A stretch of 64,000 nucleotides of DNA from Sphingomicrobium sp. (GTDB taxonomy: Bacteria > Pseudomonadota > Alphaproteobacteria > Sphingomonadales > Sphingomonadaceae). The notes under the pieces are model-generated. The model ran no database searches. It was not told the DNA's origin and saw only the letters and a program-made list of their open reading frames with translations. The position numbers and the translations under genes are program-made. Every line of letters starts with the position of its first letter. Positions within the stretch are counted from its first letter, which is position 1. Positions 60,106-64,000 of this stretch are shown here, piece by piece. Location: positions 1,014,938 through 1,078,937 of the forward strand of contig DATCMI010000001.1 of assembly GCA_036563485.1 (NCBI GenBank), in the 5' to 3' direction.

Positions 60106-61500
60106 ATGTCGTTTCATAACCTTGGCCTTTCGAAGGGCCTTCTCGCCGCGCTTGCGGCTAAGAATTACACCAAGGCCACCCCGATCCAGCTGCAGGCGAT
60201 CCCGACGGTCCTGACCGGCCGCGACCTGCTCGGCATTGCCCAGACCGGTACCGGCAAGACCGCAGCCTTCATGCTGCCCTCGCTCGATCGCCTGGACGAA
60301 AACCGTCCGCAGTTCCTCAAGCCCGGCCAGATTCGAATGCTGGTGCTCGCCCCGACCCGCGAGCTCGCGGCCCAGATCGCCGCCAGCGCGGAGGCCTATG
60401 GCAAGAACATGAAGCTGTCGGTCGGCGTCATCTTCGGCGGCGTCCCGAACGGCAAGAGCGTGCGCACGGTGCAGCGTGGCCTTGACGTCCTGGTCGCGAC
60501 CCCGGGGCGCCTGCTCGACCTCGTCGACCAGCGCGCCGTAGACCTTCGCAGCCTCGAAATCCTCGTCCTCGACGAGGCGGACCAGATGCTCGACCTCGGT
60601 TTCATTCATGCGCTGCGCCGGATCGTGGCGCTGGTCCCGCCGAAGCGCCAGACCTTGTTCTTTTCGGCCACCATGCCGAAGGCGATCAAGGAACTGGCCG
60701 ACAAATATCTGACGAACCCGGCCGAAGTGTCAGTGACGCCCGCCGCGACCACCGTTGAGCGGATCGATCAGACCGTCACCATGGTTAACCAGGCCGAGAA
60801 AGCGGCACTGCTGTCGATGGTGCTGTGCCGTGAGCCGATCGAGCGCGCGCTCGTCTTCAGCCGCACCAAGCATGGCGCCGACAAGATCGTCCGCCAGCTC
60901 GAAGCAGCCGGCATCCCCTCGGGCGCGATCCACGGCAACAAGAGCCAGGCGCAGCGCGAGCGCGCGATTGCGCTGTTCCGCTCGGGCGAGCTGAAGGTGC
61001 TGATCGCGACGGACATCGCCGCGCGCGGGATCGACATCCCGGGCGTCAGCCACGTGGTGAACTTCGACCTGCCGGACGTGCCGGAACAATATGTCCACCG
61101 CATCGGCCGCACTGCGCGTGCCGGAGCCGATGGCATTGCGATCGCCTTCTGCAGCGCGGAAGAGCGCGGCAACCTGCGCGATATCGAGCGGACCACGCGT
61201 CAGAAGATCCAAGTGACTCCGCTTCCGGCGGACTTCAACGCGGCTGCCGAAGCGTTCAAGCGCCTGAAGCCGGCGCCCAAGCCGCAGCCGGAACGCACGC
61301 GTCCCGCGACCAAGTCGGACCGGCGCAACCAGACGCAGCAGCGCGCGACCCGTAACGAGCGCCCTGCCGGTCAGGGACAGCGCCATCCGCACCGCGCCGA
61401 CGGCCATGCGGCGCATCGCCCTGAAGGCGGCCAGCCGAAGCGCCCGTTCCGCGGGCGGCGCCGGAGTGGCGGCGGCCAGCAGCGGAATGCCCGCGGCTAA
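60106..61500 (+). CDS. DEAD-box RNA helicase (RhlE-like)
   Basis: A 464-residue ATP-dependent RNA helicase used in RNA decay or ribosome assembly. The Q motif region starts at FHNLGLSKGLL; motif I is AQTGTGKT (about 45-52), motif Ia PTRELAAQI, motif II DEAD (about 156), motif III SAT (about 187) and motif VI HRIGRTARAG (about 331). The last 90 residues are basic and glutamine-rich, an RNA-binding tail. Its promoter and long leader suggest regulation, possibly cold-responsive as for relatives. Confidence 0.93.
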   Translation: MSFHNLGLSKGLLAALAAKNYTKATPIQLQAIPTVLTGRDLLGIAQTGTGKTAAFMLPSLDRLDENRPQFLKPGQIRMLVLAPTRELAAQIAASAEAYGKNMKLSVGVIFGGVPNGKSVRTVQRGLDVLVATPGRLLDLVDQRAVDLRSLEILVLDEADQMLDLGFIHALRRIVALVPPKRQTLFFSATMPKAIKELADKYLTNPAEVSVTPAATTVERIDQTVTMVNQAEKAALLSMVLCREPIERALVFSRTKHGADKIVRQLEAAGIPSGAIHGNKSQAQRERAIALFRSGELKVLIATDIAARGIDIPGVSHVVNFDLPDVPEQYVHRIGRTARAGADGIAIAFCSAEERGNLRDIERTTRQKIQVTPLPADFNAAAEAFKRLKPAPKPQPERTRPATKSDRRNQTQQRATRNERPAGQGQRHPHRADGHAAHRPEGGQPKRPFRGRRRSGGGQQRNARG

Positions 61501-61740
61501 GCGCGCAAGCTGACCCCCGCTGCCGGTGCCGCTAAAATGGCATTCGGCAGACGGGGAGGACATTGGTGCTTCATTTTCCGACAGTCGCGGCGCTTGCAGC
61601 TCTTGCCGTGCCGGCATCGGCGACAATGGAAAAAGCTGTCCTACATGCAGGTGCCTGTGCAACCTGCTCCAATGCTGTCCGCCGGTCCTCGCGAATCTTC
61701 GCATAGGCCGTCCGTCACCGCGAAGATTGGCCTTTCCACG

Positions 61741-61762: not shown

Positions 61763-61785
61763 CGCTGGATTCCGGCAAAAGTTCT

Positions 61786-61835
61786 CACGCGTGCACGCGT
61801 GCGCGTATGCGCGCGTGCACGCACACACGCGCGTG
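61786..61835. repeat. 50-bp alternating purine-pyrimidine tract (potential Z-DNA) before gyrB
   Basis: All 50 bases from 61786 to 61835 strictly alternate pyrimidine and purine, mostly CG and CA/TG steps with a single TA step. It begins with two copies of the palindrome CACGCGTG. Long runs of this kind can flip to left-handed DNA under negative supercoiling. It ends 31 bp before the gyrB ATG. Confidence 0.9.
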
Positions 61836-61836
61836 A

Positions 61837-64000
<2,164 letters not shown>

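Follow-up and report, generated by a model that had tools for sequence, protein, structure and literature searches.

Alternating purine-pyrimidine tracts upstream of gyrase genes in Sphingomicrobium: candidate supercoiling-responsive elements

Introduction

The closest described counterparts of the locus reported here are the gyrase promoters of Escherichia coli. Menzel and Gellert reportedly described in 1983 and 1987 that the gyrA and gyrB promoters of this organism are stimulated by relaxation, and we know of no long alternating tract at them. Z-DNA-forming promoter sequences are known from eukaryotic examples and from engineered bacterial ones. The relaxation-stimulated gyrase promoters of E. 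coli are treated in PMC6170449, and PMC8422995, in the part available to us, states that promoter opening alone does not explain the activation of gyrase by relaxation and names nearby structural transitions as one possibility. Supercoiling-sensitive topoisomerase promoters have been described in actinobacteria and cyanobacteria (PMC4770202, PMC5055605, PMC9825172) and Z-DNA-forming sequences at mouse start sites (PMC3024258), and a survey found that prokaryotes generally suppress alternating patterns (PMC4060949); all of these are cited from the accessible portions of the papers. Among open-licence papers, searched by titles and the beginnings of abstracts, we found no account of alternating tracts or of Z-DNA at the gyrase or topA promoters of the bacteria studied here, and none of the three papers on actinobacteria and cyanobacteria was among the matches when Z-DNA was also required.

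Here, we analyzed a window of 64 kb from the genome of a Sphingomicrobium sp. (G000; a single contig of 2,331,341 bp), in which a perfectly alternating purine-pyrimidine tract precedes gyrB. As in E. coli, the genes concerned encode gyrase and their promoters would answer to supercoiling in a homeostatic manner, but for sphingomonads this response is a prediction from sequence. The actinobacterial and cyanobacterial promoters likewise belong to topoisomerase genes under supercoiling control, but in other lineages. With the Z-forming promoters the locus shares alternating CG, CA and TG tracts near starts and a low B-to-Z threshold under negative superhelicity; the sphingomonad tracts differ in being natural, bacterial and concentrated at genes that set superhelicity, and their Z form is a prediction of the model.

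Results

The tract extends from 61786 to 61835 of the window (no strand assigned), and all 50 of its 50 bases alternate, exactly as the earlier note had claimed. The second-longest alternating run in the window measures 14. Given that 0.522 of the steps in the window alternate, runs of at least 50 are expected about 4e-10 times in the window and 1.6e-8 times in the genome. The 24-nt pattern (RY)12 matched the genome only inside this tract, and the 18-nt pattern (YR)9 matched at three places, namely the gyrB tract, a site upstream of gyrA and a third one inside the end of a putative purD gene, the latter assigned by eye. In control tiles of 130 nt, cut from 30 gyrB loci with the upstream region excluded, a run of at least 14 occurred once in 770. 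Based on the run expectation, the genome pattern counts and these tiles, we rejected a chance origin. The tract was also said to consist mostly of CG and CA/TG steps, and in the pyrimidine-purine register we counted 13 CG, 11 CA/TG and 1 TA, i.e., 24 of 25 steps of the kinds expected of long Z-prone alternation. The gyrB tracts do not stand out in step composition from the shorter alternating runs in the rest of the window, and composition was dropped as a sign of tuning for Z-DNA.

The ATG at 61867, separated from the tract by the claimed 31 bp, starts the gene for DNA gyrase subunit B (gyrB, 61867..64000, plus strand; NCBIfam NF011501, 1065 bits at a cut-off of 796), which runs off the window. 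Further upstream are dnaN, recF and a DEAD-box helicase gene; the last is encoded on the same strand, ends at 61500 and resembles RhlE, although under the cut-offs of the models. A perfect 10-bp inverted repeat flanks the tract (no strand assigned), with its left arm GGATTCCGGC at 61767..61776 and its right arm GCCGGAATCC at 61844..61853, between the -35 and -10 boxes; it was not obvious in the relatives' gyrB upstream sequences when these were read by eye. Just upstream of the tract, at 61690-61735, there is a short REP-like element with the arms AATCTTCGC...GCGAAGATT, of which two more copies of 81-83% identity exist in the genome (L002 about 1501-1553; L003 about 1501-1542).

The putative -35 box, GTGACT (61833..61838, plus strand), takes its first three bases from the last three of the tract and was assigned by the conservation of TGAC[AT]; the -10 box, TATATC (61855..61860, plus strand), follows after 16 bp and was assigned by the conservation of CTATA. 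TGAC[AT] precedes the ATG by about 33 bp in 44 of 67 gyrB loci of the genus and is present at that place in none of 21 other named relatives. CTATA is present in the last 16 bases preceding the ATG in 45 of the 67 genus loci, in 18 of the 21 other named relatives and in 43 of the 44 loci with TGAC[AT], whereas a Shine-Dalgarno-like word occurs in these last 16 bases in just 1 of the 44 anchored loci. Because the two boxes would put the transcription start at or next to the ATG, and Shine-Dalgarno-like words are scarce, the gyrB mRNA is probably leaderless, with the tract upstream of the start and its end on the -35 box. We considered a leader peptide spanning the tract but dropped it; the open frame is uninformative because alternating DNA holds no stop codon in any frame. 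GANTC is the motif of the CcrM methylase, and a GANTC site lies at 61848-61852, just before the -10 box, with one at the same place in 15 of the 44 anchored gyrB promoters.

To follow the tract in relatives, we searched 71 genomes of the same genus for gyrB and obtained a match in 69 (the sole match in G062 being of parE-like strength); 67 of the 68 fetched loci were used, leaving out L164, which had no start, and including two contigs of one genome (G057). An alternating run of at least 14 between -120 and -20 is present in 43 of these 67 upstream regions, with lengths including 50, 44, 40, 36 and 30. In 26 of these 43, 31-32 bp separate the longest run from the ATG, and the run stops on the -35 box of a GTGACT/CTATAT promoter, while in six loci (L032, L034, L040, L043, L137 and L138) it lies about 11 bp further up and the TGAC and CTATA boxes are missing. 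The remaining 24 regions, without a run of at least 14, come from 11 genomes that form one clade (support 100/99) and from scattered other members. This clade, which either lost the gyrB tract or never had one, keeps a topA run of at least 12 in 11 of 11 genomes and a gyrA run of at least 14 in 4 of 11. On the tree, covering 62 of the 71 genomes (9 of the 62 bearing no group label), presence and absence of the gyrB tract require seven changes.

From 80 named gyrB loci, we examined L047-L080. One of them, from Sphingomonas caseinilyticus (L047), has a run of 27 nt, and its upstream sequence is the same as that of the genus member G010. The other 33 (L048-L080), mostly from other genera and with starts that were chosen by script and are uncertain for L053 and a few others, have no run of at least 14 within 140 bases upstream of the start, the longest being 13. 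Absence in close relatives, named in the earlier note as evidence against its supercoiling reading, applies in part, to the clade of 11 and the scattered species, with the topA run retained throughout this clade.

Next to the promoter, it is the alternation that is conserved. In the 44 sequences with the TGAC[AT] anchor, aligned on TGAC, the purine/pyrimidine class is kept at 89-100% at positions -1 to -14 and at 61-89% at -15 to -24, while the choice of base within the class is nearly free at many tract positions; beyond about -30, even the class is near random. Positions -1 to -5 (GCGCG before TGAC) are largely kept as bases too. The gyrA columns, anchored on GGGTGG, gave a weaker version of the same pattern, with 71-93% at -1 to -18 in a count that was stopped early, at 41 of 66 loci. 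A conserved class with free bases is what would be expected if alternation were selected, unlike the pattern expected from a base-reading protein or a stem. A conserved sequence beside the gyrase promoter, as relaxation-stimulated promoters would have, was thus found at the level of class in the 44 anchored of 67 loci and is lacking in the clade of 11. The transition/transversion ratio was 1.26 in tracts versus 0.52 in flanks, a weak support as it comes from loose pair alignments, in which unrelated flanks appeared about 70% similar because end gaps were free.

Comparable tracts accompany gyrA, and tracts of another form accompany topA. A run of at least 14 was found in 47 of 66 gyrA loci of the genus, usually before GGGGTGGCG, and in 11 of 28 loci fetched from other genera; the likely gyrA promoter follows shortly after this sister tract. 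At topA, all 65 loci (from 67 genus genomes with a match) have an alternating run, always of even length (18 in 16 loci, 16 in 17, 14 in 28 and 12 in 4), located after a CTTGAC box and ahead of the ribosome-binding site and comprising 30 different sequences. It is the longest run of its locus in 50 of 59 loci of at least 3 kb, with one tie. Within the family, a topA run of at least 14 occurs in 20 of the 29 best-scoring loci; in the two family searches the loci fetched, 29 out of 88 and 29 out of 89 without counting G000, were the best scoring rather than random ones. CG steps make up 0.63 of the steps in gyrB and 0.74 in gyrA tracts, and TA steps 0.28 in topA tracts. In L282 and the 64 further topA loci, the conserved CTTGAC box is followed by a GC-rich stretch at the expected -10 position and then by the tract next to the ribosome-binding site. 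No run of at least 14 was seen at 18 parE loci (longest 13; a 19th, L306, was dropped for lack of an anchor), which argues against a generic feature of topoisomerase genes.

We also scanned genomes without regard to genes. In the genus, (RY)12 matched in 24 of 71 genomes, in 20 of them at gyrB and in three others (G020, G038 and G062) at gyrA, i.e., at one of these genes in 23 of 24; G068 was placed via its gyrB locus L027, and the likeness of the G062 gene to gyrA comes from tblastn only. G056 has matches as well, but neither gyrB nor gyrA was found in that genome. Seven additional matches, in G037 (one), G056 (two) and G062 (four), are at other places. In the family, (YR)12 matched in 31 of 119 genomes from 89 genera. 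Among the 25 whose places were listed, 19 have a match at one of the three genes (15 at topA; three at gyrA, in G079, G114 and G140; and one at gyrB, in G000), and the other six have matches elsewhere only, some of them simple repeats. In the class, (YR)13 matched in 12 of 193 alphaproteobacterial genomes, and the fetched loci, reaching at most about 1.5 kb to each side, carried none of the topA, gyrA and gyrB motifs in the 11 genomes besides G000, which argues against a feature of all Alphaproteobacteria. Runs of at least 18 were surveyed in 16 genus genomes, hand-picked for few contigs and matched by hand to gene coordinates: 30 of 60 lie at gyrB, gyrA or topA and 30 elsewhere, by a pattern that misses runs with a purine start and a pyrimidine end. 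Four or five such runs each were found in G015, G024, G027, G034 and G035.

Tracts away from topoisomerase genes (L345, L446, L456, L254 and L255) lie among direct or inverted iteron-like repeats, such as AAGTTCCCAAGTTCCC ... GGGAACTTGGGAACTT in L345 and GGTTACAGAGGTTAC ... GTAACC in L456; alternating tracts may have a mobile or REP-like origin there. In G205, an alphaproteobacterium outside the family, the same 26-nt match, a nearly perfect palindrome, is located near both ends of a 4.6-Mb contig (L451, L462).

The earlier note had suggested running a Z-DNA predictor. With a simplified single-site model based on published dinucleotide energies and a cost of about 5 kcal/mol for each junction (PMC3024258), the tract is the easiest modelled B-to-Z site of the window, with a threshold at a sigma of -0.040 in a 5-kb domain and -0.035 in a 10-kb domain, compared with -0.051 and -0.050 for the next best site. 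The modelled Z segment spans 61788-61833, and these 46 bp would by arithmetic (10.5 and -12 bp per turn) absorb about 8 turns. The threshold was -0.045 for the gyrA tract of G000, and the medians were -0.044 for gyrB (43 tracts), -0.047 for gyrA (47) and -0.058 for topA (96, other genera included). Free superhelicity in vivo is about -0.03 in E. coli, and the modelled gyrB threshold may lie beyond it. Because the topA tracts are TA-rich and their threshold is near background, the Z model as such would not cover topA, and one model does not fit all three genes.

Discussion

These comparisons lend good support to the view that alternation next to gyrase promoters is under selection. The proposal that the tract is a direct supercoiling sensor, put forward in the earlier note, receives partial and indirect support, since alternation rather than sequence is kept, the tract adjoins a conserved -35 box, and there are comparable tracts at gyrA and tracts of another form at topA. 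We give an even chance to the reading that the tracts at gyrase promoters are a selected cis-element, defined by alternation, responsive to supercoiling and probably Z-forming.

The most economical mechanism would be action via Z-DNA, with the Z form lowering initiation, a direction suggested by the homeostatic logic known from E. coli. High negative supercoiling, either global or behind polymerases transcribing gyrB, would turn the tract left-handed and thereby absorb about 8 turns of underwinding. A B-Z junction would then lie on the -35 box and initiation would decrease. Once the DNA relaxes, the tract would return to the B form and gyrase would be made again, the net outcome being that gyrase transcription is stimulated by relaxation.

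Selection might instead act on another property of pyrimidine-purine steps, such as flexibility, easy melting or pinning of a supercoil tip by the promoter, which would answer to supercoiling without Z-DNA. We judge this doubtful but worth serious consideration: the topA tracts, perfectly alternating in 65 of 65 genus loci, are rich in TA (0.28 of steps), the weakest Z step yet flexible and easily melted, and one property would fit all three genes. The gyrB and gyrA tracts, however, are rich in CG (0.63 and 0.74), stiffest to melt and best for Z, and neither melting nor bending needs strict alternation over up to 50 bp. It is rather improbable that gyrB, gyrA and topA share a protein operator read by shape or as a degenerate alternating site. 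Such an operator would agree with the base-conserved tract ends (GCGCG before TGAC at gyrB; TCGCG and GTRAGG around the topA tracts), but the interior is nearly free within class and lengths from less than 12 to 50 would be unusual for it.

Less probable still is a cruciform or hairpin with self-complementarity as the selected property. The window tract is nearly self-complementary, as had been claimed, but its fold of -31.8 kcal/mol is no stronger than those of class-preserving shuffles of the same tract (mean -33.1, s.d. 2.9). A small folding excess over such shuffles exists at gyrB (z -0.44, s.e. 0.16) and gyrA (-0.48, s.e. 0.15), and the 10-bp inverted repeat surrounds the window tract, but topA has -0.19 (s.e. 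0.14); most of the hairpin folding follows from the alternation itself. An mRNA hairpin or attenuator over the leader, the other reading offered for self-complementarity, is unlikely in view of these shuffles and of the -10 position, which implies a start near the ATG; in the predicted leaderless layout the gyrB tract would lie upstream of the start and outside the mRNA. A neutral origin by (CG)n slippage in 2-bp steps, with decay by transitions keeping alternation without selection, would suit the near-tandem GCGTAC array of G034 (L146), the 2-bp steps of topA run lengths and the simple repeats among several long runs elsewhere, but is very improbable given that same-species flanks are saturated for transversions and the tract is not, that the transition/transversion ratio is 1.26 in tracts versus 0.52 in flanks by the loose pair alignments, and that long runs are concentrated at gyrB, gyrA and topA, with none at parE.

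Returning to a selected, supercoiling-responsive element, we tentatively extend it to a class of regulatory elements of Sphingomonadaceae that is written in alternation: the gyrB, gyrA and topA tracts would possibly read superhelical density by a switch of the helix, with length and steps setting a gene-specific threshold, as a thermostat without protein. The tracts number in the dozens; they are natural, graded in length, adjacent to promoters and located at the supercoiling-setting genes of environmental bacteria. They make the question of how relaxation activates gyrase directly testable here, with natural variants, including tract-less species, as controls.
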